A stretch of 22,796 nucleotides of DNA, taken from Candidatus Rifleibacteriota bacterium. Its GTDB lineage: Bacteria; Riflebacteria; Ozemobacteria; Ozemobacterales; Ozemobacteraceae. The notes under the pieces were generated by a model. It saw only the letters and a list, made by a program, of their open reading frames with translations. It was not told where the DNA came from and did no database searches. Positions 3,028-22,404 of the stretch are shown piece by piece. The stretch is taken from contig JAKQQP010000192.1 of NCBI GenBank assembly GCA_029564115.1, positions 1-22,796 of the forward strand, read 5' to 3'. The translations under genes were made by a program, and so were the position numbers. Each line of letters begins with the position of its first letter. Positions within the stretch are counted from its first letter, which is position 1.

Positions 3028-5352
3028 ATGTATAGTTATGAGTGGGATGTTGAAACGGGGGGCTTGTTCCTGAATTCTTCGCCGTGTCAGATAAGCAAAG
3101 AGCCACGCCCGGTTTACGCCGCTGAGCTAGATCTGCTGGGCTTCGACAAATATTGGCATTACGAACGTCAGAACGATGTGCCTTATCTATGGGCAGAGGC
3201 GAATAAATATTGGTATCGTGGAAGGCTGGTTGCGGAAACCAGAGGCGGCGATTTGTACCATGCACCGAAATTACTTGTTCATGATGGCGAGTTGGATTTG
3301 CACCCCATCGACCTTGTCACGATGGGTTTCAAGAATCACGAGTTGTTATCTGTTATAGAACAGGCGACGGTGAAACGCATTTACGAAGCGTGGAAGCGGT
3401 GGCGCAAACGACTGGATGTGTTTCATGTTGCGTTTAGCGGAGGCAAAGACTCCATTGTATTATTGAATCTGGTGAAGAAGGCGCTGCCTAAAGATGCTTT
3501 TTATGTAGTGTTCGGCGACACGGGGATGGAGTTTCCGGATACTTGTGCGGCAGTGGATGCAGTCAGGGAGCAATGTCTGTCGGAGGGAATCGCGTTTTAC
3601 ACCGCCCAGTCCAGATTTTCACCAAAAGAATCGTGGAAATTATTCGGTCCACCAGCGCAGGTTTTGCGCTGGTGCTGCTCTGTTCATAAGTCTGCGCCTC
3701 AGACATTGAAGTTGCGGGAAATTCTTGGCAAAAATGATTTTGTTGGACTTGATTTCGTAGGGGTTCGCGCACACGAAAGTTTACGCCGGAGCGAATACGA
3801 ATACGATAATTTCGGCAGAAAGCAGCGTGGACAGCACAGCCACAACCCCATTCTTGAATGGACTTCGGCAGAGGTGTGGCTCTATATCTATGCTAACAAC
3901 CTTATTGTCAACGAAGCCTATAAAAAAGGCAACGCCCGTGCAGGCTGTCTTTTTTGCCCGATGTCCGGTGGCAAGGCCGACTGGATACGCCGCCAGTGCT
4001 ACAAAGAAGATGTGGATCGCTACGTTGCAATTATTCAGGATGCCAACGGCAGAGATGCTGGAGACAGACGGAAATTGGATTCGCATATTTTGAACGGCGG
4101 CTGGATTGCTCGTAATAATGGTCGTGACTTGAAAAACAACACAGCACGTATTATGGAGACAGTTGTGAATAGGCAGTTGCACATCACGGTCCACGAGGCT
4201 GCCACGGATTGGCGTGAGTGGATGAAGACGATTGGTGATTTGAATGGTGATGGGAATTGTTGGCACCTGTATTTTAAGGGTGAAATGATAGAATTTTCAG
4301 TCAATGAGTTGCCGGATGGTGGTTATGCGGTTGCTGCCGGCGAACACAAACATTTGCCGTTATTCTCGAAATTATTCAGGCAGGTTTTTCGCAAAGCCGC
4401 ATATTGTGTAGCTTGTGGCGTATGCGAAAGCAATTGCCGAAGCGCTTGCATCAGGTTTGAAAACGGTTTAAAAATTACGGACTGCATCCAGTGTCACGCC
4501 TGTCATGACATTGAGGGTGGGTGTCTGGTTTTTCACTCACTAAGACATCCACAGGGGGACGGAAAAACAAAAATGAGCATCAATTCTTTTGCTGACCACG
4601 CGCCAAAGCCAGAATGGTTGCGAGATTTCTTTCAGTCGCCTGACACATTTCTGTCGGTCAACACACTGGGGCCGATGATGATTGCCATGTTTCGGCGGTT
4701 TCTGCGCGATGCGGGACTGTTGACGAAATCAGGGCGCGAAGAGAAGCCTGCACAGTTGGCGATGCAAGTTGGGCGTTTTGGTTGGGAGACTGCAGTAATA
4801 CAGGGCATTCTATTGGTGAACCTAGTCAGTGCAAATCCGCAATTCAGGTGGTATGTGCAGAAACTGGACGCAGGCATGGGTTATTCGCGCAAAACTGTGG
4901 AAGAGATGCTGGCGGTTGATAGTGTGAGTTTGAAGGATGCAAAGTCTATCGTCAAGGCATTCAAGCGCATCGTAGAGACGCCGCTGGGAACTGTACTGAA
5001 GTTTGGGAACGTAACGGGCGCGGGCGAGAAGATCGAGACTCTGCAGCGCACGCCTTGCGTTGTGACGGATCCCCTTGTGGTGTTATATGCACTCTACAGG
5101 TTTTCGGAAGCCTGTGGGAATTATTGGCAGTTTACACTTAGGCGGCTAATGGATTTTTGCGTGGATTCTGACGGCATTAGTCCGGCGCAGATTTTCGGTC
5201 TTGAGCGCGAACGACTGCGCGGGATGCTGGAAGGACTGGCAGCGAACTATGGTGATTTCCTCACGGTAACATTCACACACGATTTAGAAAAGATTTCGCT
5301 GGCAGAAGGGAGAACCTCCGCAGAGGTGCTGTCTTTGATTTTCGGAGAATAA
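3028..5352 (+). CDS. brxP: BrxP-type PAPS-reductase/PP-loop protein of a type 4 BREX system
   Basis: 774 residues from the ATG at 3028, which has GGAG ten bases upstream; a TTG three codons earlier has no usable spacing. Counting from the TTG, the PP-loop SGGKDS is at 140-145. A WCC pair (C219, C220) and CxxC (C310, C313) match the Fe-S ligand pattern of APS/PAPS reductases and DndC-like proteins. A ferredoxin-like insert follows, with cysteines at 463, 466, 469, 473 and 477 and at 489, 492, 495 and 502. A helical carboxy-terminal region (about 525-777) resembles DUF4007, from memory. The family activates or transfers sulfur through an adenylated intermediate. BREX type 4 is defined by such a protein in place of a methyltransferase. 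It is first in the operon, four bases before brxC. Whether it makes phosphorothioate DNA here is inference. Confidence 0.85.
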   Translation: MYSYEWDVETGGLFLNSSPCQISKEPRPVYAAELDLLGFDKYWHYERQNDVPYLWAEANKYWYRGRLVAETRGGDLYHAPKLLVHDGELDLHPIDLVTMGFKNHELLSVIEQATVKRIYEAWKRWRKRLDVFHVAFSGGKDSIVLLNLVKKALPKDAFYVVFGDTGMEFPDTCAAVDAVREQCLSEGIAFYTAQSRFSPKESWKLFGPPAQVLRWCCSVHKSAPQTLKLREILGKNDFVGLDFVGVRAHESLRRSEYEYDNFGRKQRGQHSHNPILEWTSAEVWLYIYANNLIVNEAYKKGNARAGCLFCPMSGGKADWIRRQCYKEDVDRYVAIIQDANGRDAGDRRKLDSHILNGGWIARNNGRDLKNNTARIMETVVNRQLHITVHEAATDWREWMKTIGDLNGDGNCWHLYFKGEMIEFSVNELPDGGYAVAAGEHKHLPLFSKLFRQVFRKAAYCVACGVCESNCRSACIRFENGLKITDCIQCHACHDIEGGCLVFHSLRHPQGDGKTKMSINSFADHAPKPEWLRDFFQSPDTFLSVNTLGPMMIAMFRRFLRDAGLLTKSGREEKPAQLAMQVGRFGWETAVIQGILLVNLVSANPQFRWYVQKLDAGMGYSRKTVEEMLAVDSVSLKDAKSIVKAFKRIVETPLGTVLKFGNVTGAGEKIETLQRTPCVVTDPLVVLYALYRFSEACGNYWQFTLRRLMDFCVDSDGISPAQIFGLERERLRGMLEGLAANYGDFLTVTFTHDLEKISLAEGRTSAEVLSLIFGE

Positions 5353-5356
5353 ATTA

Positions 5357-8300
5357 ATGAGTAAATACCAGGATTATTTTGACATTGACCCCAGATATTT
5401 TCCTTGTGTAGATGAGTCTGCACTTCGAGCCGGAGTTGAATGGAAGGCTTTCTTCCCTCATGAGACATTTGCCCGGCTGTTGACGGAGACAGAGCGTATA
5501 CTTGCACGGCAAAACAGGTTTTCACTCTGGATCGAGGGTGCTTATGGCACGGGTAAATCATATGCGGCATGGGCGCTTAAGAATATTCTTGAATGCTCTG
5601 ACGCAGATTTGGTGAGCTATTTCGCTCTTCACCCCGAAAAGCTGGGGAATGATTTACTGACCAAACTCAGGGGGCACAAGAAGGGAAAAATCGTGGTGGC
5701 GCACCGTTACGCTTCAAGCAGTATTCGAGGCGACCGAGACTTGATTTGTGCAGTGCAGGAGAGTGTTCGCAAGGCGTTAGACGTAGCTGCAGTCAGCTAT
5801 AAGGGGGAAAACACATTGCGGGAAAGCGCAGTGGCATGGATTGAAGCTGCCAACCATAAGGCGTTTTTCGATTCGCTGGTGAAATCAGAAAAATACCGCT
5901 ACGCCTTTCATGGTAAAAGCGCTGACGATGTTCTGGCACAGCTGAAGGGCAACGGGGACGTTCACGATTTGATGGAAGAGATTTTTAAACTTGCCGCCGG
6001 AGAGGGTATTACCGCTCTTGACACTGACATGAAGCGGCTCATTGCATGGCTGGAAGACGTTATTGAGCAGAACGGGCTGAAAGCTCTGATGCTCGTCTGG
6101 GACGAGTTCAGCGAATATTTTAAAAACAATGCGCACTCTCTGACGGAGTTTCAGAATCTCGCTTCTGTCTGCACGAATAAGCCGTTCTATCTGGTCATCG
6201 TTACGCATGAGTCTGGCAGTTTGTTCAGTGAGCAAAACCCTGACTGGAAAAAGCTGCGCGACCGCTTTCACCGCGCAGAAATCGCGCTCCCAGAGACTAT
6301 CGCGTTCGATCTCATCGCTCATGCGTTGGTGAAGAAAGAAACGGCGAAGAGTGAATGGAAGAAAAAAGCGAACAAGCTTAACAGTCAGGTAATTGAATCA
6401 CGCAAGAAAGTGGCAGAGGCCACTGGCGTGAAAGAAGACATGCTGCAGAAATTGCTGCCGCTTCATCCTATGGCAGCATTGCTTCTGAAGCACATCGCCA
6501 GATCCTTCAAGTCCAACCAGCGCTCGATGTTCGATTTCATCAAAAACGGCGCAGGGGATCAAGATGTTAAGGCCTTCCAGTGGTTCATCAGCCAGTATGG
6601 GCCGCTGGACCATGACCCACTCCTGACTGTTGACCATCTGTGGAATTTTTTCTACGAGCGCGGCAAAGATGACCTTGCGGCTGATATTCGCTCCGTTCTG
6701 GATGCCTATCCTCGGGCTGAGGGGCGGTTAATGGAAGATGAAAAGCGTGTTCTTAAAGCCATACTGGTGATGCAGGCTGTTGGACAGAAACTGGATTCAA
6801 GAGTGGAACTCTTCAAGACTACCGACGCTAATCTTGCGCTTGTCTTTGAAGGGACAGAGTTGGAAAGCAATGCTGTGAATATCGCCTGCAAATTGGTGCG
6901 TGACGAAATTCTTTTCAATAAGCCGTTGGGCGGTGGCAAAACGATGTATGCTGCAGTAACGGCAGCGGGCGATGCAGAACAGTTGGAAAAAGACCGCGAG
7001 TTTTTCCGCAAGAATAATAAAACTGCATACCTTGTTCAAAGCGGAGGCATGGTAGAAGTATTGCCGCTAACACCTCTACTTAAAATGCGCTGGGAAATCA
7101 AAACGGTGACCGGTGACGACTTTACTCGTGAAACCAATCTTCTACGCAATAAAGACGTGAAATGGAAGATGAAGGCGGTTATCGGGTTCGCCAGAGACGA
7201 AGCGGAACGGGATGCGTTACGTAGGTTGATGAATGAGGCTGCAGCTAAAGACGAATACCGGAATATTCTGTTCATTGATGCGATGGGAACACCTATGGGT
7301 GCCATGTTTGATGATTATGTAGATTACATGGCGAACCACAAATATTATGAGGGCAAGGACAAGGCCCTGGCGAATGATATGGAAGCCAAGGCGAAGGCAG
7401 TTTTGACAGAATGGCGGAATGCCATTTATAGCGGCACGTTTGTGTTTTATAGTTGCGACGGCACGCCGCCACATTCAGTAATAGACGGATCGGCGGCGCT
7501 GAAAGAGTTGACCGCCGCTGCCTTGAGAAAATATCCGCTGGGTTTTGATGGGTTTCTTGGTCGCGATATGCTGTTCGGACTTGTGAAGAAGACCGATGTG
7601 GAAAAAGGTATTAAAGGCCTGTCTCTCCAGGTTGGCTTAGCTGGTGACAAGGAGAAGCAAAGCATTCTTGAAGCACTATCCCCGCGTCTCAAAGATAAAA
7701 TGAATGCCTTTGTCGCGGAGAAATTCAGAGCGAACGGGCGAGTGTCGATATTGGAAATCTTTGGCGAACTGACAGAGAGCGGTTTCATGCCAGCCAACCT
7801 TTACGGTTTTCTTACCGGCTGCCTGCTCAAAGATTATGCAGACGCAAAATACCGCTGGAGCGATGGGCAGGCAACGGAGACGATGACGCCTGAGAAACTG
7901 TCAGAAGCTATTGCCGAGACCATTAAATATACTGGCGAGCCTTTTCGCAACTATCGCGAAAAATTCATTGTGCTGATGACAGCGGAAGAAAAGGCGTTTA
8001 ATGGCCTGACTTCGAAAGTATTCAGGCTGTCTGAGACCCAATGCGTCTCGGTTGAACATACGGCACGCCTGGTCAGCGCGAAGATGAAGGAATTTGGTTA
8101 CCCACTCTGGGTGCTGGAAAAAACCCCGGGCTTTTCCCTGATCGACAAATATATACAATTGGTCAATCCGCAGGGTGCCAGGCCTTCTGCTATCGCGTCT
8201 GAAATCGGAAAAGCCGCGCTGGCTGGCGAAGGAGAACAGCTTTCGGAATTTGTGACAAAAGAGAATATTTTGAACGGGATGCGCGCATTTCTGGATGTAT

Positions 8301-9406
8301 TCGAGAGCGGGCGTGCCGTTAATCTCGCCAGAGAGATTGGGGCTGAATCTGAGTTGCTTATAGATGTGAAGAATAAGTTTGATTCGTCTGAAGCCCTCTG
8401 GCTATGGGATAAGGCGATTGGTGAAGACCGCATTCGCGACTTGATTCTGGATTACGAAATAGTGAAGATGAGCAATACTGTCAATCCGCCTGCAAAATCG
8501 CTGAAAGGCTGTTACGATAGCTGGCGTGATCGCTTGAAGTTTGTGAAGATGCCATGGGAACCATTGAAAAAGGAGTTTCCGGCTAGTGGTCGCCTTTTTG
8601 AGGCGTTGCGCGACATTGTCCAGAACGGAAGCCTGATGCCTGAAAAACGGCGAGTATTCTTGGATGATCTGCAGGCAAATATGAGAGAGATCAAATCGCT
8701 CTTCAATGACTCCGCAAAGCATTTTAAGACAATCTATCATGCCTATCTGGACGGATTGAGTGATGTCGAGATTGCGACACTTGCAGGGAACTTAAAGAAC
8801 GGTTTGTTTGTCTGCGAAAAGAGTGAAGCGTATCGTTGCATTAGTGAGGCGGTCGAAGAGACAAAAAAGAATCAGGCCAAAACACGTTTGCGCCAGAAAT
8901 GGCAGGACAAGTCTGGCAGTAAAACGCCTCTCGAATGGTCACGAAAGCATAAGACGCCTATCCTGTGCATGTCACCTGATTTCGAAGAAGCGAAAAAGGC
9001 TTTCGATACACTGAACCGGACAAATCCCGAAGAGTTGGAAATCAAGTCTGCCGAGGCGTGGTTGGATCAGGCTTTATGGCTCTCAGATTTAAGTGATAAG
9101 GCGAAGCGTGATGCAGCATTCGTGCGACAGGTCATCGGACGCTATGCGCCGATGTTGCCAGATGTTGATAAGGTGCGTGACCTGCTTTCGGAGAAAATCG
9201 CGGCGGAACCATACGGCTGGTTCCCAAATCCTGACGTCAGAGTCAGATTGGAATACGAGGCAAAAAAACACTACGAGGCTGGTGGTTCAGATGCCGTTGT
9301 CAAGAGGATTAACGCAATGACAGACTCAGAATTGAAAGCATGGCTCAAGAAGCTGGTCAAAGAAAGTATGACTGTGGGGATCGAAATCATCGGAGAGTGC
9401 GAATGA
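5357..9406 (+). CDS. brxC: BrxC/PglY-type large P-loop ATPase
   Basis: 1349 residues, within the usual 1100-1400 range of BrxC/PglY proteins. Walker A is GAYGTGKS at 61-68. Walker B is LMLVWDE at 244-250, followed by a sensor-like strand ending in VTHE near 284. The rest is long and helical without a motif I can name. BrxC/PglY is a core component of BREX and probably an AAA+-like motor acting on DNA together with PglZ. The ATG at 5357 has GGAG nine bases upstream, at the very end of brxP. The stop overlaps the next gene's start (ATGA), which indicates translational coupling. The start, length and motifs are clear; assignment to BrxC rests on the neighbours as well as the sequence. Confidence 0.87.
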   Translation: MSKYQDYFDIDPRYFPCVDESALRAGVEWKAFFPHETFARLLTETERILARQNRFSLWIEGAYGTGKSYAAWALKNILECSDADLVSYFALHPEKLGNDLLTKLRGHKKGKIVVAHRYASSSIRGDRDLICAVQESVRKALDVAAVSYKGENTLRESAVAWIEAANHKAFFDSLVKSEKYRYAFHGKSADDVLAQLKGNGDVHDLMEEIFKLAAGEGITALDTDMKRLIAWLEDVIEQNGLKALMLVWDEFSEYFKNNAHSLTEFQNLASVCTNKPFYLVIVTHESGSLFSEQNPDWKKLRDRFHRAEIALPETIAFDLIAHALVKKETAKSEWKKKANKLNSQVIESRKKVAEATGVKEDMLQKLLPLHPMAALLLKHIARSFKSNQRSMFDFIKNGAGDQDVKAFQWFISQYGPLDHDPLLTVDHLWNFFYERGKDDLAADIRSVLDAYPRAEGRLMEDEKRVLKAILVMQAVGQKLDSRVELFKTTDANLALVFEGTELESNAVNIACKLVRDEILFNKPLGGGKTMYAAVTAAGDAEQLEKDREFFRKNNKTAYLVQSGGMVEVLPLTPLLKMRWEIKTVTGDDFTRETNLLRNKDVKWKMKAVIGFARDEAERDALRRLMNEAAAKDEYRNILFIDAMGTPMGAMFDDYVDYMANHKYYEGKDKALANDMEAKAKAVLTEWRNAIYSGTFVFYSCDGTPPHSVIDGSAALKELTAAALRKYPLGFDGFLGRDMLFGLVKKTDVEKGIKGLSLQVGLAGDKEKQSILEALSPRLKDKMNAFVAEKFRANGRVSILEIFGELTESGFMPANLYGFLTGCLLKDYADAKYRWSDGQATETMTPEKLSEAIAETIKYTGEPFRNYREKFIVLMTAEEKAFNGLTSKVFRLSETQCVSVEHTARLVSAKMKEFGYPLWVLEKTPGFSLIDKYIQLVNPQGARPSAIASEIGKAALAGEGEQLSEFVTKENILNGMRAFLDVFESGRAVNLAREIGAESELLIDVKNKFDSSEALWLWDKAIGEDRIRDLILDYEIVKMSNTVNPPAKSLKGCYDSWRDRLKFVKMPWEPLKKEFPASGRLFEALRDIVQNGSLMPEKRRVFLDDLQANMREIKSLFNDSAKHFKTIYHAYLDGLSDVEIATLAGNLKNGLFVCEKSEAYRCISEAVEETKKNQAKTRLRQKWQDKSGSKTPLEWSRKHKTPILCMSPDFEEAKKAFDTLNRTNPEELEIKSAEAWLDQALWLSDLSDKAKRDAAFVRQVIGRYAPMLPDVDKVRDLLSEKIAAEPYGWFPNPDVRVRLEYEAKKHYEAGGSDAVVKRINAMTDSELKAWLKKLVKESMTVGIEIIGECE

Positions 9407-10293
9407 CAGATGCAGAAATCGTTGCATATATTCGACAACTACTTGCAGAAGGCCGTGGTACTGTCGCAAAATCAGAGGTTATGCAACAACTGGAAGAACG
9501 GTTGTTGAGAGAAGCAGAGATTATGCGTGTTTTACGCGAGTCTAAGCCGTCACTGAGCGAGGAGGAAATCGTGCATATTCTCCGAGAGCATGCTCCGGAG
9601 GTGTGGCGAGAACTTATGCAAAAAGTGACTGATGCGAAAATCACGCGTATTCTCCGCAAGCATGCTCCAGAGGTGTGCGAGATAAAAAAGGGTTGTATTC
9701 CTTGCTGGCGTGACGCTACGGCAGGGCTGCCGGAAGATTTTGCTTCACGTCTGACGGATATCGTGGGCATCCTGCAACTGATTGAGCGGCCTGTCACGCA
9801 TGACACGCTTGATTTCGCGCTCTCACTTGCCTATCGGGAAAAGTTTTGCGAAGGGCGTGGTTTGTCTGACAAGACTGTATTCAGGCGTGTGGTCGAATCC
9901 TGCTACAACGGTGATGGGGAGATTTTTACACGTCGAGAGAGTAGTTTCAGCAGTTCGCGCTGTATATCATCAATTCCTGAAAGCGTGGTGTCCACGACCG
10001 CCGGACGGCGCTCGCGCACATGCTTTCGCGACCTGGGTATTCCTATCGGCGCAGTGTTGACTTTTACAGAAAATCCATGCGTTACGGTTGAAGTGGCAGA
10101 TGATATTTCAACCGTTATTTACCAGGGCCGTCGTGTCAAAACCTCGCCGCTGGCACAGGAACTATTGAGTGTCTATTGCGGCCGGACAAGTCAGCACAGT
10201 GTCGCGGGTGCGCGCTATTGGCTTTACGATGGTGAGACCCTCGAAATGCGTCGGTTGCGGCTGGAAGAGGATGGCGATTGTGATAATAGCTGA
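9403..10293 (+). CDS. Unrecognised BREX-embedded protein with ILR-HAPEV repeats; possible compensated frameshift
   Basis: 296 residues. The ATG at 9403 overlaps the brxC stop (ATGA) and has GGAG seven bases upstream. The amino-terminal half has related helical repeats: EIMRVLRESKPSLS (39-52), EIVHILREHAPEVW (55-68) and KITRILRKHAPEVC (79-92). A CxxC (98-101) and a possible winged-helix stretch (about 112-167) follow. The carboxy-terminal part (209-289, FRDLGIPIGAVLTF onwards) resembles a small module I associate with restriction-linked proteins, from memory and without a name. Residues about 178-206 are an odd Ser/Arg-rich run. Over the same bases the +1 frame reads more protein-like, suggesting two compensating frameshifts near 9935 and 10005. 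I do not recognise the gene. Its place between brxC and pglZ suggests a BREX accessory or DNA-binding role. Confidence 0.7.
   Translation: MTDAEIVAYIRQLLAEGRGTVAKSEVMQQLEERLLREAEIMRVLRESKPSLSEEEIVHILREHAPEVWRELMQKVTDAKITRILRKHAPEVCEIKKGCIPCWRDATAGLPEDFASRLTDIVGILQLIERPVTHDTLDFALSLAYREKFCEGRGLSDKTVFRRVVESCYNGDGEIFTRRESSFSSSRCISSIPESVVSTTAGRRSRTCFRDLGIPIGAVLTFTENPCVTVEVADDISTVIYQGRRVKTSPLAQELLSVYCGRTSQHSVAGARYWLYDGETLEMRRLRLEEDGDCDNS
9577..9677 (+). repeat. Imperfect direct repeat coding for the HAPEV motif
   Basis: Two 29-base copies (9577-9605 and 9649-9677) differ at three positions and start 72 bases (24 codons) apart, in frame. They encode ILREHAPEV and ILRKHAPEV. High DNA identity suggests recent duplication inside the gene. 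Confidence 0.75.
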
Positions 10294-12436
10294 AAATTGG
10301 CCGAATCGATTGGAGCCTGGTCTTGTAGACTCTATTGATTGTTATCGAAACGATAAAGCACTATTCATGCCATTCTTCGTGACATTGACCGGGAATGTTG
10401 AATTACGCCATGCGCTTGCCGAGAAAGGTGGCACAGAAATCCGATTGAGTGATTTCTGTGACGGAGACAGCGAAGAACCGGACTTTGACGCGCTGATCAC
10501 ACGCTTGCGGGATGAAATTGGCTTTACATATGTGCTGGGGATGGGTGAGTATCTGGCGCTGGCTGGCAATGCCAAGGCACAAGCCGAGCTGTCGCGGATA
10601 AAAGATCTTGCGCTTGCCGCTAACGCAAAAGTTGTGGTGCTGTTGCGCGGGTGTCTAGACGTGCTGAAAATCTTCTGTAAAGATGACCCACGCTTCGCAG
10701 AGCGGCAGGTGTTCATGGGACATGGGGCCTCACAAAAATTATCCGTGACCGTGGTTGCACCAGAATTGGGAATTGTCGGAGCGGAATGGCTGAAAATGGC
10801 GTTGCGGGAAATGGAGGACGGCGAAATAGAAAATATTCGTATAAAAACCAACCTTGATTTCCCTTGGGCCACGGTTCCTGTGAAGTGCATTCGTAGCGCA
10901 TATCAAGCCTTGGAAGATAAATGGCCTGGTATGGAGTCATGTGGGGCGCCCGATGACTGGGCGCACTTATTGCGGACAACAATTGACGACGCATACACGT
11001 CGCCACCCGGCGAAAAATTTCTCGATTTTCTCACTCTTAAACGGGATGGTGGTAATAGCTATCTGGCATTTGTAGCAGTGCGTTGTGAAAAGTTCGCAGA
11101 TTTTGAGCGTGAGAAACAACACGCGCTTCTGGAAATACAGCCGCATGATCCACGTTTTGAAGCTTTTTACGCTGAACGCAAGGCCTTGCTCAAAGGCATA
11201 CCAGATGCGGAAATTGCTGGCTACGTCACCATGACTAAAATCAAGGGCGAACAGCGCATTCATTATCTTACCGATAACACAGCAGTTGAACGTAAAGCGG
11301 TTATCGAATGCCTGGAAGGTGCACCAAAAATCCCTGCGCTGAATGTTTATCCTGCGTTGGCAGATTATCTGCGCGATTTCAATTGTGGGCAGTGGACAGA
11401 CTATTTTCGGCGGTATAAGCGACAAAAGCTCGTGAATCAGATCGAAGACGGTTGGCTGGATGTTGTGAATGAAGCCGCGAAGAGGCGCGAATATAACTTG
11501 TTGCCAACTCGCGAAGGAATTATTGATCAACTTTCAGATAAGGCACACGCCGCACTATTTTTTGTGGATGCATTAGGGGTAGAGTTTTTGGGCTTCGTTC
11601 AGGCCCGCTGTGCTGCGTTGGGCTTGCGGCTGGAGGTCAAATTGGCACGGGCGAACTTACCGAGCCTTACGCGATTGAACAAAACGTTTTACGATGAGTG
11701 GGCGGGTAAAAAATTTGAGAGTCGGGAGTTAGACAAGGTAAAGCACGAAGGCGTAGCGGGTGAATTTGATTACCGGCAAAATAAACTGCCCATTTATCTG
11801 GCGCGAGAACTAGAAATTGTTGAAGAGGTTTTGCAACGCATCAAAACAGAACTGGCGTCCGGCAATTGCCGCATGGTTGTAGTCGCAAGTGATCACGGAG
11901 CAAGCCGCTTGGTAGTGGTCAATGGGCAGGAGTGCCAATATGAAGTAGATAGCAAGGGAACTCATTCTGGGCGGTGCTGCGCGGTTTGTGAACTACCAGA
12001 CGGATTGGAAGCAGTTACAGAAGAAAACGATTGGCTGGTGCTGGCTGATTACGGGCGGTTCAAAGGTGGGCGTGCGGCGGCGGTAGAAGTCCATGGCGGA
12101 GCGACTAATGAAGAGGTGATTGTGCCGGTTATGGAGCTCACGTTGTCAGGACATGTCATTGAAATTTCATTGGTTGTGCGTGAAATCAAAGCAAACTACA
12201 AAAAGCCGGCGATTATTACGATTTTCTCGCAGGACGTTCTAACCGATGTGTCGGTGGTTGTGAATGGCAAACGGTATATGGCAGAGAAACAGGATGCGAA
12301 CCAGCATCGCGTGACTATGCCGGACATTCGCAGAGCCGGCGATTATGCGGCAGAGGTTTACGAGAGGGACAACCTGATTGGAAGCGTCAGTTTTACTGTG
12401 AAGAGTGGTGCTGCACAGGAAAACGACTTGTTTTGA
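10271..12436 (+). CDS. pglZ: PglZ, alkaline-phosphatase-superfamily protein of BREX (type 4-like)
   Basis: 721 residues from the ATG at 10271, which overlaps the previous gene by 23 bases. A GTG at 10280, with GAGG nine bases upstream, is an equally possible start. PglZ hallmarks are visible: the metal-site strand FFVDALG with D433, VVASDHG with D541 and H542, and the carboxy-terminal HGGATNEEVIVPVMEL segment typical of the family. A beta-rich tail follows. PglZ is the one protein shared by all BREX types and is required for defence; it is predicted to be a metal-dependent hydrolase. The gene is tightly linked to the preceding one; brxL follows after 35 bases. Family assignment is firm; the type 4 subtype follows from context. 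Confidence 0.92.
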   Translation: MAIVIIAENWPNRLEPGLVDSIDCYRNDKALFMPFFVTLTGNVELRHALAEKGGTEIRLSDFCDGDSEEPDFDALITRLRDEIGFTYVLGMGEYLALAGNAKAQAELSRIKDLALAANAKVVVLLRGCLDVLKIFCKDDPRFAERQVFMGHGASQKLSVTVVAPELGIVGAEWLKMALREMEDGEIENIRIKTNLDFPWATVPVKCIRSAYQALEDKWPGMESCGAPDDWAHLLRTTIDDAYTSPPGEKFLDFLTLKRDGGNSYLAFVAVRCEKFADFEREKQHALLEIQPHDPRFEAFYAERKALLKGIPDAEIAGYVTMTKIKGEQRIHYLTDNTAVERKAVIECLEGAPKIPALNVYPALADYLRDFNCGQWTDYFRRYKRQKLVNQIEDGWLDVVNEAAKRREYNLLPTREGIIDQLSDKAHAALFFVDALGVEFLGFVQARCAALGLRLEVKLARANLPSLTRLNKTFYDEWAGKKFESRELDKVKHEGVAGEFDYRQNKLPIYLARELEIVEEVLQRIKTELASGNCRMVVVASDHGASRLVVVNGQECQYEVDSKGTHSGRCCAVCELPDGLEAVTEENDWLVLADYGRFKGGRAAAVEVHGGATNEEVIVPVMELTLSGHVIEISLVVREIKANYKKPAIITIFSQDVLTDVSVVVNGKRYMAEKQDANQHRVTMPDIRRAGDYAAEVYERDNLIGSVSFTVKSGAAQENDLF

Positions 12437-12471
12437 GCTGAAAATGAACACGAAACGAGTGAAAGAGTATT

Positions 12472-13902
12472 GTGATTGATAAATTGAAGCGGTGTTTTGA
12501 TGAAATGGTAGTTTTCAAAAACCTGAAAAAAAGCAATTTTTTTTCGGCGTTGAGCCTTCCGTCGTTTATGCGCGACTGGCTTTTAAAACGTTTTGAAAAT
12601 GAAGATGGCGAGTATGACCCTGCTGAGCTGGCAGAATTCATACGCATATATCTGCCGCACAAGGAAGACTGGAATGCCATCAAAAATCGGATCGTCATTG
12701 AGAACGAACGGGTTAAATTTTTGGCCAAGGTGATGGTAGATATTGACGTGCGGACAGCGGAGGTGTCATTTTCTCTGCCTGATTTTGGATTGCGTAACCG
12801 CGAAACGGTCATTGAACAGCCTGTTTGGGATACTTGCAAGAGTGCGCTGGTTAAAGGGCGCGAAACATGGGGGATGTTGGAATTGGGATATCGCCAGCCA
12901 GATGACAGTCTGAAATTGGAGGGGAGGATTAGACTGGTCGGGTTCAAAGCCTTCCAGCCATACACCATTGACACATGTTATTATAAGGAGGCCCGTAAAG
13001 AGTTCACTGTAGAAGAATGGATTGATGTGTTGCTCGGGGCAGTGGATTATAATGCGGCGGGCTATTCTGATGAAAACGCGAAGCTGACAATGCTGTCGCG
13101 TTTGCTTCCGTTTATCGAGAAGCGCCTGAATCTCATTGAACTGGCCCCCAAAGGAACGGGAAAGTCTTATTTGTTCGGACGTGTGAGTCGTTTTGGATGG
13201 CTTAACTCGGGCGGGGTTATGAGTCGCGCCAAAATGTTTTACGACATTGCGCGTCGGACGGAAGGGCTTGTTTCAGGCAACGACTTCATTACGCTGGATG
13301 AGGCACAAACCATAACATTCCCCGACGACGATGAGATGCGTGGTGCCTTGAAAGGATACATGGAATCAGGCGTATTCACGGTTGGAAATTATCAGGGACG
13401 TGCCGACGCAGGTGTAATTCTGTGTGGCAACATTCAGCAGGACAGGATGAACGAATATCAGAACATGTTTGAAGAGCTGAAGGTATTTTACGAGTCGGCG
13501 TTGATTGACAGGTTCCACGGGTTTATAAAAGGCTGGAACATTCCGCGCATGACCGATGATTTGAAGGTTTCCGGTTGGGCGCTTAATTCCGAATATTTTT
13601 GTTCCATACTGCACGAACTGCGCGAAGATGCCAGCTATCGCGCTATTACGGATGCCATGATTGTTGTTCCGGAAGCGGCAGACACTCGTGACACCGAGGC
13701 GGTCAAACGTATTGCGACAGCCTGGTTAAAACTGTTGTTTCCGAATGTGCAAGACGTGGGAGAAATTGACTCAGTGGACTTTGATCGATATTGCCTGCAT
13801 CCAGCCAGAAAGATGCGCAGCACTGTTAAAATCCAACTTGGCATAATGGATTCAGAATTTCGCGGCAAGGATGTACCGCTGTTCAAAGTCAGGGGCGGGT
13901 GA
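12472..13902 (+). CDS. brxL: BrxL, short form with AAA+ ATPase core
   Basis: 476 residues. Walker A APKGTGKS is at 225-232, Walker B DFITLDEAQ at 271-279 and a sensor-1-like VILCGN at 315-320, as in BrxL proteins. Classical type 1 BrxL is about 680 residues with a carboxy-terminal Lon-like domain. This one ends soon after the ATPase core, matching the roughly 450-470-residue subgroup (TIGR02688-like, from memory). Protease activity is therefore not supported. BrxL forms a DNA-associated AAA+ ring needed for BREX defence in some systems. The start is GTG at 12472 (MIDKLKRCFDE), with a weak GAAAGAG upstream; no in-frame ATG fits. The stop lies next to the small zinc-ribbon gene. Confidence 0.9.
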   Translation: MIDKLKRCFDEMVVFKNLKKSNFFSALSLPSFMRDWLLKRFENEDGEYDPAELAEFIRIYLPHKEDWNAIKNRIVIENERVKFLAKVMVDIDVRTAEVSFSLPDFGLRNRETVIEQPVWDTCKSALVKGRETWGMLELGYRQPDDSLKLEGRIRLVGFKAFQPYTIDTCYYKEARKEFTVEEWIDVLLGAVDYNAAGYSDENAKLTMLSRLLPFIEKRLNLIELAPKGTGKSYLFGRVSRFGWLNSGGVMSRAKMFYDIARRTEGLVSGNDFITLDEAQTITFPDDDEMRGALKGYMESGVFTVGNYQGRADAGVILCGNIQQDRMNEYQNMFEELKVFYESALIDRFHGFIKGWNIPRMTDDLKVSGWALNSEYFCSILHELREDASYRAITDAMIVVPEAADTRDTEAVKRIATAWLKLLFPNVQDVGEIDSVDFDRYCLHPARKMRSTVKIQLGIMDSEFRGKDVPLFKVRGG

Positions 13903-13904
13903 AC

Positions 13905-14111
13905 ATGCATAAAAAATCCGCAAAATGCCGTTCCTGTGGGAGAAAACCGCTTTCACGAGATGAAATCGGTCTCAACAAAAAATTTATCCATCGTGAACTC
14001 AGGGAATTTTTCTGCCTATCTTGTCTTGCTGAATACTGTGAGATCGAAGAGGGGGAATTAAAAGAAAAAGTTGCTGAGTTCAGACGGCAAGGTTGCGTTC
14101 TGTTCGGATAA
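13905..14111 (+). CDS. Small four-cysteine zinc-ribbon protein at the end of the BREX operon
   Basis: 68 residues from the ATG at 13905, two bases after the brxL stop, with a GGGG stretch nine bases upstream; a GTG at 13899 is a weaker alternative. CRSC (8-11) and CLSC (37-40) form a two-knuckle zinc ribbon. An acidic helical tail ends in GCVLFG. Similar small CxxC proteins are common in anaerobes, where I know no proven role. As the last gene of the operon it could be a structural or regulatory partner of the BREX complex or a metal-site chaperone for BrxP. Both are inference from position only. Confidence 0.75.
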   Translation: MHKKSAKCRSCGRKPLSRDEIGLNKKFIHRELREFFCLSCLAEYCEIEEGELKEKVAEFRRQGCVLFG

Positions 14112-14181: not shown

Positions 14182-15132
14182 TTATAATTTGCGGTGACGG
14201 GGTTTGCGGGCGCGCGCCGGCAAATCGTAAGGAGCTGCGGGTTCGCAGGCACGGGGAGTGTCGACGGCGAGTTTTTCGATCTGTTCGATGCTTAACCCGG
14301 TAATTTCGCCGATTAGAGACAATGGCATGCCTTTTGCCAGCATTTTTCGGGCTACCTCGGCTTGAGTTTGCTCTATGCCTTCCTGCCTGGCCATGCCGTA
14401 GTCAGAATAAAGGGCCATACTTGCCATATAGTGCAGGTCGTAAGAGTGACGGTTGTAAGCTATTCGGTCCGCTTCGCTCAGCTTCAGAATGTCGAGGCGG
14501 TCTTTGGCTTTCTGTATTCCCTTGGCTTTGAATCCGGGTTTGATTTCTTCATTTTTGAGAAAATAGATCCATTCGTCGAGGGTGTTCTTTGCCACGTCAT
14601 TAAAATTGTTAACCTTGATCAGATAATACTCCGGGAAAATCTCGGAAGGTGAGGCCTGCCTGAACAATTTTTGCTGCTGACTGCTCAATGCCAGTTCGTC
14701 TTGAAAATTAAGGCCGACAAAAGATGTCTGGCCGTGGTAAATGTAGTCTTTGCCATGCCCAAGGTTGAAATAGAGAATATTGACCGAAATCACTTTGGCT
14801 ATCTCTGAATAGGCCATGCCTTCAGGCAGATGCTCGCATATTGCCGTTGAGGCGGCAAACAACATGCGCTGAAAATAGTCATATTCTCTTTCATACTGGA
14901 TTTCAATGATGACGATCTCATTTTTGGCATTGACGACCTTCAGGTCAAGGCGATTGGCTTTCTGACCGGGATGACTTTTATTGCTTTCACCTTCAAGAAT
15001 CGAAAGTATCTTGATGTCGTCTTTGAGTAATTCCGACAGAAAACCTTCAAGAATGACAAAATTGGCTTTGCTGCGCAAAAGCCTCTTGATTGCCCAATCG
15101 AAACTTACCAGCCTGCGTTTTTTGGAAATCAT
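14182..15132 (-). CDS. Rpn-family PD-(D/E)XK nuclease / putative transposase
   Basis: 316 residues. It opens with the family's FDWAIKRLLRSKANF segment. A PD-(D/E)XK core follows, with D63 (RLDLKVV) and E77-I-Q79 (IIEIQYERE). The carboxy-terminal part has the family's MLAKGMPLSLIGEITGLS-type helix-turn-helix-like motif and a basic tail. E. coli Rpn proteins promote RecA-independent recombination and are DNA endonucleases; the PDDEXK_2 transposase family is their wider group. The start at 15132 has GAGG seven bases upstream. It is convergent with the BREX operon and 70 bases from its last gene. It may be a passenger or a mobility factor of the island. No terminal repeats of a transposon were found around it. 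Confidence 0.88.
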   Translation of the reverse strand: MISKKRRLVSFDWAIKRLLRSKANFVILEGFLSELLKDDIKILSILEGESNKSHPGQKANRLDLKVVNAKNEIVIIEIQYEREYDYFQRMLFAASTAICEHLPEGMAYSEIAKVISVNILYFNLGHGKDYIYHGQTSFVGLNFQDELALSSQQQKLFRQASPSEIFPEYYLIKVNNFNDVAKNTLDEWIYFLKNEEIKPGFKAKGIQKAKDRLDILKLSEADRIAYNRHSYDLHYMASMALYSDYGMARQEGIEQTQAEVARKMLAKGMPLSLIGEITGLSIEQIEKLAVDTPRACEPAAPYDLPARARKPRHRKL

Positions 15133-16480: not shown

Positions 16481-18073
16481 ATGATGGAACGCACGCAGTA
16501 TTTCTGGCGCTCTGTTTGCCTGTTTCTTGCAATTATGATGATTGGGGCGGCCGTTTCTTCTGTCGCCGCCGAAAAACAGATAAAGATCAAAGTTGCCCAG
16601 TATGCAAAAGATCTCGAATTCAACTGCCCTCAGGGAGCAGCCTGGGAACTCGGCGGCCAGAACGGCCGTATTCAGCCGGGCGAAAAATGTGTACTGACTG
16701 GCACCATGACTGCTAAAGCCGTCAGGCGCTTTCGGGTCATGGTTTCTTCGACTTCTCTCGCAGAAACAGAAACTATAAAAGCTGACGAAGATAAATGGCG
16801 TCGGCTTGGGTTTCCGGTGCGCACCATGGTCGTCGGTCAGGAATTCTTTGCTGAAGACGGCAAAACCTTTCTGTATGACAATCGCATGGCAATGGTCGAA
16901 GTTGGTGTTTTCAACGACAAGGCCTCAGCCCAGGCTCTGGTCGACAAACTTTCAGCCCAGGGGCAGTCGAGCTGGATCTACGAAGAAATCGTGCAGCTGG
17001 CACAGGGCACCCTGAACTTCACAATTAACGGCGCATTCAAGGCTACCGGTAAAGAATTCGCCCTTCTGCCGCAGCAGACCATTCACATGAAGAAAGTCGA
17101 GTATGGTGCCGGTTATTCGTGGCATGGCTATGCCGACCGCAACTACTCAGGTTCACTGCTGGTGCGTTATGGTGCGAACGATGCGATTGACTGCATTCTC
17201 ACCACCGCGTTTGAAAATGTTCTCGCTGGTGTCGTTCCGTCAGAAATTTCAGCCAAAGCCGAAATCGGCGCGTTGCAGGCCCAGGCCGTCGCCGCCCGCG
17301 GCGAAATCATGGCTAAAATCGGCGTCAGACACGCCAGCGAAGGGTTCGATACCTGTTCTGAACAGCACTGTCAGGTGTTCAACGGTGATACCACCTATTC
17401 AATCGATGTCGGCAGAAAAATCGCTCCGACTGCCGGTTACGTTCTCATGGGCCAGAATGGCCACATTCTCGACGCGGTTTATGCTGCAAACTGCGGTGGC
17501 CACAGCGAATCCAGCCACTATGTCTGGACTACCCAGCCAAATCCAGCCCTCACTGGAAAATGGGACAATTCAGGAACCCCGGCACTCGATCTGAGCGAAG
17601 AAGAACAGGTTGGTGTGTTTATTCGCAATCCTCCCGCAGGCTGTCACTGCAATAACCCGACAGTAGAGGGTGGCAACCGTTTCCGCTGGAACAAAGCCAT
17701 GGCCGCCGCCGACTGGAAAAAGGTCGAAGAAAGTCTGGCAATTGGCCGGGTTAAAACGGTCAAAGACATTGCCCGTGGTGTTTCAGGCCGCATCTATCGC
17801 CTCACCTTCGTTGGCGAACGCGGCGAAAAGACCGTCATGAAAGAACTTAACATTCGCCGCCTCTTTGGTGGCCTCGCCAGCGCCTGCTTCGTCGCCGAAT
17901 GGAAGCGAGATGCCGCTGGTTATATTGTGAGTGCCGAACTTCTCGGTGCCGGTTTCGGTCACGGGGTCGGCATGTGCCAGACCGGTGCCCAGAGTCTGGC
18001 CAAACAGGGCTGGAACTACCAGCGCATCCTCAGCCACTATTTCACCGGCAGCCAGCTGAAAAAGATGTATTGA
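16481..18073 (+). CDS. SpoIID/LytB-family peptidoglycan-active protein with SPOR-like region (paralogue 1)
   Basis: 530 residues, with a signal peptide (about 1-30, ending SVAA). Two degenerate regions include a SPOR-like segment (about 137-172, MVEVGVFNDKASAQ onwards), a fold that binds denuded glycan. The SpoIID/LytB domain spans about 215-530: VVPSEISAKA with the expected catalytic E255, AANCGGHS near 336, and GHGVGMCQTGA at 493-503. H284, C292 and C297 (HASEGFDTCSEQHCQV) may form a metal site as reported for some SpoIID proteins. SpoIID is a lytic transglycosylase acting on peptidoglycan during engulfment; here no other sporulation gene is visible, so envelope remodelling is likelier. The start has GAGG six bases upstream. 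It has its own terminator and converges on the amidase gene. Confidence 0.9.
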   Translation: MMERTQYFWRSVCLFLAIMMIGAAVSSVAAEKQIKIKVAQYAKDLEFNCPQGAAWELGGQNGRIQPGEKCVLTGTMTAKAVRRFRVMVSSTSLAETETIKADEDKWRRLGFPVRTMVVGQEFFAEDGKTFLYDNRMAMVEVGVFNDKASAQALVDKLSAQGQSSWIYEEIVQLAQGTLNFTINGAFKATGKEFALLPQQTIHMKKVEYGAGYSWHGYADRNYSGSLLVRYGANDAIDCILTTAFENVLAGVVPSEISAKAEIGALQAQAVAARGEIMAKIGVRHASEGFDTCSEQHCQVFNGDTTYSIDVGRKIAPTAGYVLMGQNGHILDAVYAANCGGHSESSHYVWTTQPNPALTGKWDNSGTPALDLSEEEQVGVFIRNPPAGCHCNNPTVEGGNRFRWNKAMAAADWKKVEESLAIGRVKTVKDIARGVSGRIYRLTFVGERGEKTVMKELNIRRLFGGLASACFVAEWKRDAAGYIVSAELLGAGFGHGVGMCQTGAQSLAKQGWNYQRILSHYFTGSQLKKMY

Positions 18074-18436: not shown

Positions 18437-19432
18437 TTACTGGCCGATGTTTTTCAGAAGTTTTTCGCGGTATTCGGGCAGTTTCTTGTAAAGCATTGTG
18501 CCCGGGCATGACTTCGGGGCGAAGTCGCAGTGGCCGTAAAGGTTGGTTTTCGGGTCGATCTTGTAGGTCGAGGCCAGCCATGACAGCACGTTAAGAAGAG
18601 ATTCTTCAATTTTGGGGTTAAGCTGGTCTTTATTATCGTCATAGTCGCCGATGACGCAGACACCTACTGAATTTGTATTGGGTGAGCAGTGAGCGCCAAC
18701 GACGCCTTCGGGGCGGCCCTGATAAATAACGCCATCAGGCCCGATCAGAAAGTGGTAGCCAATGTCGGCCCATTTGGTTTTCGGGTCATCCATGTGATAG
18801 TTCTGAATGCCGCGAATGGTGGCTGCGCCTTTGTATGAAGCCTGGTTCGGCAGATAGCTGTGATGAACGATCAGCCGCTGCGGGGTATGAGGAGTATATG
18901 AAGATTTTGGGGGTCTGGCACCCCAGGCGGCGCGTGCTACGACTGTGGGTTTGGCCCAGGCAGCTTTCACTTCGAACGGAGCCGGTTTCTGCATGAAATA
19001 TTCCATTTTCTTTGCTTCAAGATAGTTACCCTGAACGGAAAAATGTCTCACGGCAGTTTTGCCTCTTTCGGGGTCTCTGACGACGAACATCAGCTGACAG
19101 GCCGAAACTGAGTCGATGGCAGAAAAATGATATTCACCATCAAAAGCCAGATAGCTTGTCCAGCGGCCGGTTTCAGCATATCTGAATCTGGCATAGCATC
19201 TGACGAGGGCCTTTTCAGCCTTTTCCATGTCAACGCCGACGATCAGGTTGTTGACGGCTTTGTCCATTTCCATTACTGCGGTTTCATGCTGGCCATAGGT
19301 TGAGCCGGATACGATAAAATCAGGGTTGCCGGTAATAAGAACGTCAGGGGTGTCGACGTCGGCGCGAACCAGGCAGGGGAGCATAAAAGCGAAAAACAGT
19401 GCTAAAAGACCAATCATTCTCAGATACTTCAT
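18437..19432 (-). CDS. Exported PGRP-type N-acetylmuramoyl-L-alanine amidase
   Basis: 331 residues. A signal peptide (about 1-24) ends LVRA before DVDTP. A non-catalytic region (about 30-155) precedes the amidase/PGRP domain (about 165-331), which opens with ARAAWGARPPK. The T7-lysozyme-type zinc ligands can be assigned to H190 (IVHHS), H301 (YGHCDF) and C309 (SCPGT), with the catalytic-site Y226 (GYHFLIG). The domain cleaves the amide between MurNAc and L-alanine of peptidoglycan, acting outside the cytoplasmic membrane. The start at 19432 has GAGG six bases upstream. It is a single-gene unit, with a terminator on each side, between the two spoIID paralogues. That position fits joint glycan and stem-peptide cleavage. 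Confidence 0.93.
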   Translation of the reverse strand: MKYLRMIGLLALFFAFMLPCLVRADVDTPDVLITGNPDFIVSGSTYGQHETAVMEMDKAVNNLIVGVDMEKAEKALVRCYARFRYAETGRWTSYLAFDGEYHFSAIDSVSACQLMFVVRDPERGKTAVRHFSVQGNYLEAKKMEYFMQKPAPFEVKAAWAKPTVVARAAWGARPPKSSYTPHTPQRLIVHHSYLPNQASYKGAATIRGIQNYHMDDPKTKWADIGYHFLIGPDGVIYQGRPEGVVGAHCSPNTNSVGVCVIGDYDDNKDQLNPKIEESLLNVLSWLASTYKIDPKTNLYGHCDFAPKSCPGTMLYKKLPEYREKLLKNIGQ

Positions 19433-19916: not shown

Positions 19917-21473
19917 TTAGTAAAGTTTAACCAGTTTTGCCCCCGGAAAATAATGCAGCAGAATGTCGGCAAAGGCTTGGCCTACCAGCGCCATACTCTG
20001 GGCTCCAGTCTGACACATACCGACGCCGTGACCCCAGCCGGCCCCTTCAAAGTCGGCGGCGTTGATGAACCCCTGTTTGTCGCGTTTCCAGTCGGCCTTG
20101 AAAAACGAACTACGCAGCCCGCCAAAAAGCTGTCTGATCGGCAGTTCCTTTAAAACCGTCTTTTCGCCATTTTCGCCACTCAGCTTGATGCTGACGATGC
20201 GGCCTGAAATCTCTCTGACGATACCACTGATTTCTTTGATTCTGCCAATGGCGGCCTTGCCTTCTACAGTCTGCCATTCTTTCGGGCTCAGGCTCTTTTT
20301 CCATCTGAATTTGTCAGCGCCTTCGACTCCCGGAGTCGCACACCAGCAGTCGGGCGGGGCGCTGATAAAGCTGCACGCCTGTTCTTCATTGGTCAGATCA
20401 ATTCTAATACCGGTTTTTATGTCAGAAACGCCCTGTAGATGAGGGTCGGCGTTCGAGGTCCAGATGTTCTGATTTGCAGAAGAGTGCCCGCCACAGTTGG
20501 CCCCATAGACGGCGTCAAGTATGCCACCCTTGTGGTTTTCGAGCACCAGGCCACGGGTAGGGGAGATGCTGGCAGCAATATTCTGGTCGGTTGGCTGCAG
20601 GCCTTTGTAAACCTGGCAATGCTGCTCTGAACAGAAGTCGAAGCCCTCGTTCAGATGCCGAACGCCCTTTTTGGAAAGCATCTCGCCTCTCGCTGCCACT
20701 GCCTGGGCCTGCATGGCGGCCATCGGCGCCTTTGCCGATATTTCTGAGGGCACAATTCCGACGAGCAGCTTTTCGAGATCGGTTATTTCGATGCAGTCGA
20801 GCGAATTCTCGACACCGAATTGAATCAGCATGTCGCCGGCGAATTTGCGGTCTTCAAAGCCGTGCCATGAGTAGCCTTTTGCGAATTCGGCCTTGCGCAG
20901 AATTGTGTTCTCTTTGCTGCTGAATTTCAGGCCGGTCAGGCTTTCGATAATTGTCTGTTTGCCAAGCTTGAGCTGCAGTTTTCCGGTTGCCGGCCTGATA
21001 TTTTCGATAAAAACCCAGCTGGAAATACCATCTGCGGCAAGCTTGTCCTGTAGTTTGCGGGCTTCGGCCTCGTCGGCAAAAATTCCGACGCCGATAAAAA
21101 CGACGCGATTGTCAGGGTAGCCCGGTGCCGGGGTATTGCCGGCGAGAAAGCGATGGGTCTTGAAAGCTTTGAATTTGAGTTCGGTTGCGCGCAGCTGATT
21201 CTCGTCGGCAGCACTGCCTGAGCCAACCATCAGGTGATAGCGGCGCACCGCCTTTGTCTGCAGCTGCCCGGTGATGACGTAGGCACGGTCGGGGATGATT
21301 TTTCCGCTCTTTTTGTCGGCCTGCCAGGTGCCGCCAGCCGGCATGACGACCTCAATTCTGCTGGCATACTGGGCGACGCGAATTTTAACTTCGGGCGCTT
21401 TTGCTGCCATAGCCATACCTGCTGCCAGGTTGATGAGCAATACCGCCAGAAGCGACTGTAGAAGTTTATTCAT
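19917..21473 (-). CDS. SpoIID/LytB-family peptidoglycan-active protein with SPOR-like region (paralogue 2)
   Basis: 518 residues from the ATG at 21473, which has GGAG nine bases upstream; a TTG two codons earlier is less well spaced. The signal peptide ends near AMAA (about 24). The architecture matches paralogue 1: an amino-terminal KIRVAQYAS region, a SPOR-like segment (about 125-158, VVFIGVGIFADEAEA onwards), then the SpoIID domain with IVPSEISAK (E244 expected catalytic), FCSEQHCQV, ANCGGHSS and GHGVGMCQTGA. Both paralogues carry a Cys-rich insert (SAPPDCWCATPGVEG here). It is expected to cleave denuded glycan strands outside the inner membrane. The start lies inside the end of murQ (8-base overlap), so the two are translationally coupled. 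Confidence 0.9.
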   Translation of the reverse strand: MNKLLQSLLAVLLINLAAGMAMAAKAPEVKIRVAQYASRIEVVMPAGGTWQADKKSGKIIPDRAYVITGQLQTKAVRRYHLMVGSGSAADENQLRATELKFKAFKTHRFLAGNTPAPGYPDNRVVFIGVGIFADEAEARKLQDKLAADGISSWVFIENIRPATGKLQLKLGKQTIIESLTGLKFSSKENTILRKAEFAKGYSWHGFEDRKFAGDMLIQFGVENSLDCIEITDLEKLLVGIVPSEISAKAPMAAMQAQAVAARGEMLSKKGVRHLNEGFDFCSEQHCQVYKGLQPTDQNIAASISPTRGLVLENHKGGILDAVYGANCGGHSSANQNIWTSNADPHLQGVSDIKTGIRIDLTNEEQACSFISAPPDCWCATPGVEGADKFRWKKSLSPKEWQTVEGKAAIGRIKEISGIVREISGRIVSIKLSGENGEKTVLKELPIRQLFGGLRSSFFKADWKRDKQGFINAADFEGAGWGHGVGMCQTGAQSMALVGQAFADILLHYFPGAKLVKLY

Positions 21474-22404
21474 GATCAATATCTCCGATGGCTTTGTAAA
21501 GCACGCCTTCAGCCTGCTTCAGTTTAAGCTTAGCCTGCTCGACAGTGAAATCGGTGCGGGCGAGCAGAATCGCGAGTTTGACGTCGCCATCCGCTTCCTG
21601 CAACTTGGCTTCGGCCAGATAATTCGGCACCTGTCCGCCTTCCATGACAATGCGCAGGGCCCGGCGGCGCAACTTGGCGTTGGTAGCTCTCATGTCGATC
21701 ATCAGATTCTCAAAAACCTTGCCGATCCTGATCATGCTGATGCTCGAAAGCATGTTGAGAACCATTTTGCAGGCTGTTCCGCTTTTAAGGCGGGTCGAAC
21801 CGGTTATTACCTCGGGTCCGACGGCCGGGTTGATCAATACGTCGGTTTTGGGCAGGTCGCCATAAGGATTGCAGGTGAGTAATACGGTGTGCGCCCCGAT
21901 CGAACGGGCGTAGTCGATGCCGCCGACGACGTAAGGGGTGGTGCCCGAAGCGGTGATGCCGACCAGAACGTCATCTTTGCAGAAGTTGACCTCGATGAGG
22001 TCGGCCCGCCCTGCTGAAACGATGTCTTCTGCCCCTTCAGCAGCATTGTTGAGTGCCTGATACCCGCCGGCAATGATTCCCATGACCATATCCGGCGAAA
22101 CCCCGAAGGTCGGGGGACATTCAGATGCGTCAAGAACGCCAAGCCGGCCTGAAGTTCCGGCGCCGAGATAAATCAGTCGGCCGCCCTTTTTGAAAGCGCT
22201 GACAATGAGCTCGATAGCCTGGGCTATCGTTTCTGAACAAGCCTCGACCGCCTTGTAAATTGCCTTATCTTCATTGATGAAAAGCTTAACCGCGTCACGG
22301 GTGCTGACTCGGTCAATATAAATAGTGCGTGGATTACGGGTCTCGGTAAGGGCCTGAGTGGCTTCGGTCCTGCCGGCTTTGCCCTGAAGCTTGCTTTCGG
22401 TCAT
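21466..22404 (-). CDS. murQ: N-acetylmuramic acid 6-phosphate etherase MurQ
   Basis: 312 residues, close to the roughly 300 usual for MurQ. The SIS-domain signature GAGTSGRLGVLDASECPPTF is at 81-100, with E95 matching the catalytic glutamate of the family. A second conserved glutamate lies in EGAED (123-127), and ITASGTTPYV is a further SIS sugar-phosphate loop. MurQ cleaves the D-lactyl ether of MurNAc 6-phosphate in the cytoplasm, giving GlcNAc 6-phosphate and D-lactate in peptidoglycan recycling. The ATG at 22404 has GGAG seven bases upstream and overlaps the kinase stop by four bases (ATGA). Downstream it overlaps spoIID paralogue 2, so wall cleavage and sugar salvage share a transcript. 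Confidence 0.96.
   Translation of the reverse strand: MTESKLQGKAGRTEATQALTETRNPRTIYIDRVSTRDAVKLFINEDKAIYKAVEACSETIAQAIELIVSAFKKGGRLIYLGAGTSGRLGVLDASECPPTFGVSPDMVMGIIAGGYQALNNAAEGAEDIVSAGRADLIEVNFCKDDVLVGITASGTTPYVVGGIDYARSIGAHTVLLTCNPYGDLPKTDVLINPAVGPEVITGSTRLKSGTACKMVLNMLSSISMIRIGKVFENLMIDMRATNAKLRRRALRIVMEGGQVPNYLAEAKLQEADGDVKLAILLARTDFTVEQAKLKLKQAEGVLYKAIGDIDHE

Follow-up and report, generated by a model that had tools for sequence, protein, structure and literature searches.

A type 4 BREX operon in which a winged-helix gene with a RAMA-type domain may have replaced a conserved gene upstream of brxP

The BREX type 4 system (brxPCZL) is described as making phosphorothioate DNA in the available parts of two articles (PMC11931770; PMC12839542, section 34), both of which cite a preprint for it, and in the latter section BrxC, the PAPS-reductase and DUF4007 are taken to correspond to SspC, SspD and SspB. 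In type 1, PglZ is a metal-dependent nuclease according to the available part of PMC12205998. The literature searched gives no settled answer as to the BREX-4 part responsible for recognition of DNA. The RAMA domain, of which a relative is found below, is described in the available part of PMC12839542 as a reader of modified bases and is tied there to another type of system. According to the available part of PMC9963953 the RAMA domain of MPND binds double-stranded DNA with no sequence preference and that of CcrM touches the DNA backbones; 6mA left the binding of MPND unaltered, contrary to an earlier pull-down that found MPND on 6mA DNA.

The locus studied here occupies positions 3028–14111 of the window, i.e., the whole stretch of 22,796 nt that was analysed. 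It holds six same-strand genes, all with open frames, at distances ranging from -14 (overlap) to +35 nt, given the start codons chosen by us. An earlier note on this DNA had recognised a PP-loop/Fe-S protein, a large ATPase, PglZ and a short BrxL in one tight operon and had assigned it to BREX type 4, and both statements are borne out by the coordinates and by PADLOC and NCBIfam BREX-4 profiles, which match BrxP, BrxC, PglZ and BrxL. Judged from these matches, the operon is a real type 4 BREX. BrxP (3028..5352, +), a PAPS-reductase protein, stands in place of PglX (PADLOC PDLC02510, E = 2e-250; Pfam PAPS_reduct, E = 2e-29). It combines a PAPS-reductase-like part with a cysteine-rich (Fe-S-like) region and a C-terminal part that may be DUF4007-like; residues 523–770 match a second BrxP profile (PADLOC, E = 9e-10) and residues 681–768 give a weak match to Pfam DUF4007 (E = 0.25). 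The BrxC ATPase (5357..9406, +) matches PADLOC PDLC02485 with an E-value of 0 and no Pfam or NCBIfam family above cut-off. PglZ (10280..12436, +) is named 'BREX-4 system phosphatase' by NCBIfam (NF033445, E = 4e-104; PADLOC PDLC02554, E = 2e-131) and retains the residues that are invariant across 37 PglZ sequences. BrxL (12472..13902, +; TIGR02688, E = 1e-119; PADLOC PDLC02505, E = 5e-217) is short with 476 aa, and its residues 70–457 align with 81–456 of the 679-residue solved BrxL 8emc. The remaining two genes, X (9403..10293, +; 296 aa) and Y (13905..14111, +; 68 aa), are discussed below; X shares 4 nt with brxC and 14 nt with pglZ.

The earlier note had also reported the absence of a PglX-type methyltransferase, and a Pfam scan of 14 window proteins, with NCBIfam also searched, brought up no DNA methyltransferase. 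The sole methyltransferase match among the Pfam-scanned proteins is FtsJ/RlmM-like, i.e., of rRNA type, and its gene (1555–2625, +) lies upstream of the operon, where the gene called c5 below might be expected. On the other side the operon is adjoined by a gene for an Rpn-family/PDDEXK_2 recombination-promoting nuclease (14182–15132, -; Pfam E = 2e-26), and further on two SpoIID-domain proteins (16481–18073, +, and 19917–21479, -) are encoded with an Amidase_2 gene (18437–19432) between them.

A search with an alignment of 37 PglZ sequences found at least 272 relatives in genome contigs, and the loci of the best 80 were surveyed. The usual order in these loci is c5 - BrxP - BrxC - PglZ - BrxL - Y - desulfurase, where c5 denotes a gene family present in every one of the 64 loci whose sequence extends more than 900 bp upstream of BrxP. 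The desulfurase gene was present in 50 of the 69 testable close loci and absent from 19, and it is DndA-like by PADLOC in the single survey locus so scanned (L003). The brxC-pglZ distance is at most 67 bp in 78 of 79 loci, the wider gap in L064 holding a piece of PglZ, and a BLAST match to X was found in none of the 80. In the window neither c5 nor a desulfurase gene was found. Six loci from a viral collection also carry PglZ relatives; c5 is matched in five of them, although L083 has no more than a 127-aa piece where the locus starts, and an X-family gene in one, L086; Y was found in the five c5-matching loci, and L086 ends at PglZ.

The survey divides the claim of the earlier note that two further genes are not standard parts: it stands for X, as seen above, and falls for Y, which is present in 77 of the 78 close loci where BrxL is followed by more than 250 bp (L045 is without Y, and L048 has it elsewhere). 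By this recurrence Y is a standard part in close relatives. It is a CxxC...CxxC protein with a fifth conserved cysteine near the C-terminus; in an alignment of the 77 loci and the window, four of the five cysteines are kept in 78/78 rows and one in 77/78. No Pfam, NCBIfam or PADLOC family was matched at cut-off by the two Y proteins scanned. In most survey loci the Y gene stands directly before the desulfurase gene, and from this gene order and the fifth cysteine one might guess at a sulfur carrier or relay, or at a desulfurase adaptor. Y may be the zinc-finger protein mentioned in the available part of PMC12839542.

None of the libraries searched holds the c5 family, and it does not figure in the available part of PMC12839542. 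Complete members have between about 460 and more than 1000 aa, and no library model covers their core (six members scanned, and 45 members against Pfam and PADLOC); the few matches are to parts of the protein, one member matching the ZorC 'EH signature' (E = 5e-8, the best of all) and up to three matching phage-integrase SAM-like domains (best E = 5e-6). An AlphaFold2 model of a 479-aa member (45 sequences; pLDDT 92.5, pTM 0.68) has repeated helix-strand units that can be read as about six predicted winged helices. In Foldseek this model is matched best by UFL1 (E = 5e-5) and SelB (E = 1.5e-3), both of which we take to be tandem winged-helix proteins. Ahead of the core lies an N-terminal region of 0–603 residues in the 55 members with closed 5' ends, with a mean pairwise identity of 0.19 versus 0.30 for the core. 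A c5 profile search matched 43 of 151 genomes of one family, and of 30 matching loci examined, 21 have BrxP within about 1.5 kb, one has BrxC and eight have neither (L105, L106, L107, L111, L113, L114, L115, and L116), so that c5-like genes may also serve other systems. Hence c5 is mostly, perhaps not exclusively, a BREX-4 gene. In the close relatives of the window we take it to be the DNA-recognition subunit.

Gene X is predicted to consist of two winged helices (about residues 1–108 and 113–167) followed by a C-terminal domain (about residues 199–291; window 9997..10275, +) for which structure matches to the AlphaFold2 model indicate a RAMA fold; the model itself is modest (pTM 0.46, 5 sequences). 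The first 108 residues of the model match many winged-helix folds, and residues 192–289 match PADLOC PDC-S57 (E = 6e-17). The Pfam RAMA family PF18755 gave no match to the window protein at E up to 1, and for this reason the domain is called RAMA-type rather than RAMA; among eight X relatives only the protein of L117 matched (E = 6e-5), and its 23.4 bits fall below the cut-off of 35.2. Three RAMA-type copies are found in L086 and one in L128, and L129 was matched in the winged-helix part only. The window protein carries a 42-residue insert that four aligned relatives do not have, and within the insert region a 52-nt direct repeat (window 9554–9677) occurs in two copies 72 nt apart. The C-terminal module of X is also found fused to a T5orf172/MUG113 domain, presumably of GIY-YIG type, in two proteins (P0005 and P0100).

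Is X then related to c5? A comparison of the X family (4 sequences) with c5 (64 sequences) by hhalign gave a score of 41 (P = 1.2e-4, probability 55%). In the controls the score did not exceed 17.7 when the columns were shuffled 30 times, was 17.9 with c5 reversed and 15.5 with X reversed, and reached at most 22.3 for ten further gene families from these loci. No X protein was among the matches listed when the c5 profile was run against single proteins. Among the best 40 weak scores to the winged-helix part of X from ORFs of at least 400 aa, 26 belonged to c5 versus 7.4 expected, and for the RAMA-type part, with the same length limit, 9 of 40 versus 6.1, counts which give no independent probability because the c5 rows are mutually related. 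Two longer X relatives (L086 and P0099) gave a 191-column alignment to the c5 core with a score of 30, versus at most 18.1 in 40 shuffles. An intermediate is provided by the L129 protein, which matches the X-family profile with E = 3e-23 and the c5 profile with E = 0.005, and its addition to the X family raised the score against c5 to 71 (E = 1.1e-8, probability 95.6%; at most 17.7 in 30 shuffles), where hhalign E-values are per single comparison and the link is largely transitive, because L129 alone gives an equal score. By profile comparison through this intermediate, the winged-helix core of X is related to the core of c5.

Three loci with X-family genes are here called branch B together with a fourth locus, L150; the three are L086/L117 (a single contig of the viral collection), L128/L152 (genome G339) and L129 (genome G791). 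In these three the X-family gene lies directly upstream of BrxP, the position of c5 in the close relatives, with a 77-aa frame intervening in L128. X, as a member of this family, is more than an extra. Branch A comprises the 80 survey loci and two more. The window PglZ has PDLC02554 as its nearest profile, and those of L117 and L129 have PDLC02550. The scores of window proteins, in bits against branches A and B, are 930/407 for BrxP, 1059/264 for BrxC, 478/96 for PglZ, 740/481 for BrxL and 80/62 for Y, i.e., all five are closer to branch A by 1.3 to 5 fold, a comparison biased by the choice of A for its likeness to the window and by the size of B, four loci; X finds branch B only. In a FastTree phylogeny of 73 BrxP sequences, with branch C as the root, the window and all 65 sequences of A form one group with support 1.0, the window lying inside branch A beside L078.

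A wider sample was taken by running the BrxP profile over two phyla (matches in 7 of 395 and 4 of 387 genomes, split matches counted once), which gave 12 places in 11 genomes, two of them identical by position to the survey loci L003 and L030. Upstream of BrxP, c5 was found at four places (G002, G192, G402 and contig 56 of G017), the X family at two (G339 and G791), a weak X at one (G664, i.e., L150; BLAST E = 2e-7) and neither of them at three (G298/L144, G384/L147 and contig 4 of G017/L149); the contig of G542/L146 ends before the upstream gene, and nothing was matched next to BrxP in G755, where BrxP itself is a partial match. In G192 and G402 c5 is in two frames, and G192 also has a broken BrxP. 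Y was not seen in L144 and L146, where the sequence continues past BrxL. As some BrxP loci are without c5, X or Y, these genes are not general to all BrxP systems, and the c5/X subunit is not needed in every one. L144 itself holds a BREX-4-like operon with a split BrxP (765 and 243 aa), flanked, as we read its sequences, by genes resembling xseA and xseB.

How could such an operon work? BrxP, with sulfur from a cysteine desulfurase encoded outside the window, probably places phosphorothioate marks on host DNA. That BrxP marks DNA with sulfur had been proposed in the earlier note, and it is sound for BREX-4 as a type, being already in print as far as the available parts of PMC11931770 and PMC12839542 go. 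BrxC, PglZ and BrxL would act on invading DNA, and X or c5 would supply the recognition of DNA. In the window c5 is missing, and an X of the branch-B type would have taken over its role after relocation to between brxC and pglZ. We lean towards this account, a type 4 BREX whose recognition subunit c5 was replaced by a relocated X from another branch, and it draws on three observations, i.e., the gene content, the relatedness of X and c5 and the nearest branch of each part. Since the other five parts are nearest to A and X finds B only, the simplest course would be loss of c5 and gain of a branch-B-type X at a new place, where X would bind DNA and either choose targets or read marks. Going further, one may speculate that BREX-4 in general has an exchangeable DNA reader, c5 or X, which determines the DNA to be marked or attacked, that the operon of the window is a natural exchange of this reader, and that the RAMA-type domain of X reads the sulfur-marked backbone, as RAMA domains (CcrM, MPND) have been reported to touch backbone; this wider proposal we regard as rather improbable. 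No description of sulfur-mark reading by a RAMA-type domain as the self/non-self distinction of BREX was found in the literature searched.

It is conceivable that X did not replace anything and is an independent accessory gene inserted in the operon, e.g., a sensor of modified phage DNA. The description of RAMA as a modified-base reader (PMC12839542, available part) and the earlier pull-down of MPND on 6mA DNA (reported in the available part of PMC9963953) fit such a role, as does the fusion of the C-terminal module to a GIY-YIG-type domain, from which it appears to travel alone. Against this, the winged-helix part of X is related to c5, relatives of X occupy the c5 position and the window is without c5, and the accessory role seems rather unlikely. 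X, and c5 with it, could instead be a transcription regulator of the operon, winged helices being common in regulators and many such folds matching residues 1–108, but X lies inside the operon, overlapping both brxC and pglZ, and the RAMA-type domain and long winged-helix arrays were judged unusual for a simple repressor; this we consider unlikely.

It is, in our view, very unlikely that the operon is a decayed BREX-4, out of function after the loss of c5 and the desulfurase. Both genes are indeed absent from the window, and the insert in X with its internal DNA repeat, absent in four aligned relatives, could be a sign of decay; on the other hand all six frames are open, the residues invariant in 37 PglZ are retained and 19 of 69 testable close loci also do without the desulfurase. 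In addition, relatives of X (45% and 36% identity) appear to share contigs with PglZ relatives, which suggests that the arrangement is probably not a one-off. If X did replace c5, this conserved winged-helix subunit, variable in part and seemingly exchanged between branches in nature, would offer a direct handle on DNA recognition. The conservation of c5 is a broader finding that reaches beyond the operon of the window: as c5 and Y recur almost as regularly as the four named genes do, the formula brxPCZL may undercount the parts needed for reconstitution in branch A.

Compared with described systems, the operon shares with BREX type 4 all four named parts with type-4 profiles and the absence of a DNA methyltransferase among the window proteins scanned, and differs from its relatives in being without c5 and the desulfurase gene and in having X between brxC and pglZ. 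X in turn differs from c5 in being shorter, in its RAMA-type domain and in its position, and it has neither the long variable N-terminus of c5 nor the first winged helices of the longer X relatives; as it is not the first gene upstream of brxP, it is filed as a relative of c5 rather than as c5. From the RAMA proteins CcrM and MPND it differs in having winged helices instead of a fused methylase or peptidase domain. No PADLOC match to SspE or SspFGH was found among seven window proteins scanned. The likeness to the Ssp system (SspABCD) is seen in matches of BrxC to SspC profiles (best E = 5e-21) and of BrxP to an SspD profile (E = 2e-12), but the operon differs from it in having PglZ and BrxL, and the BREX profiles match far better.
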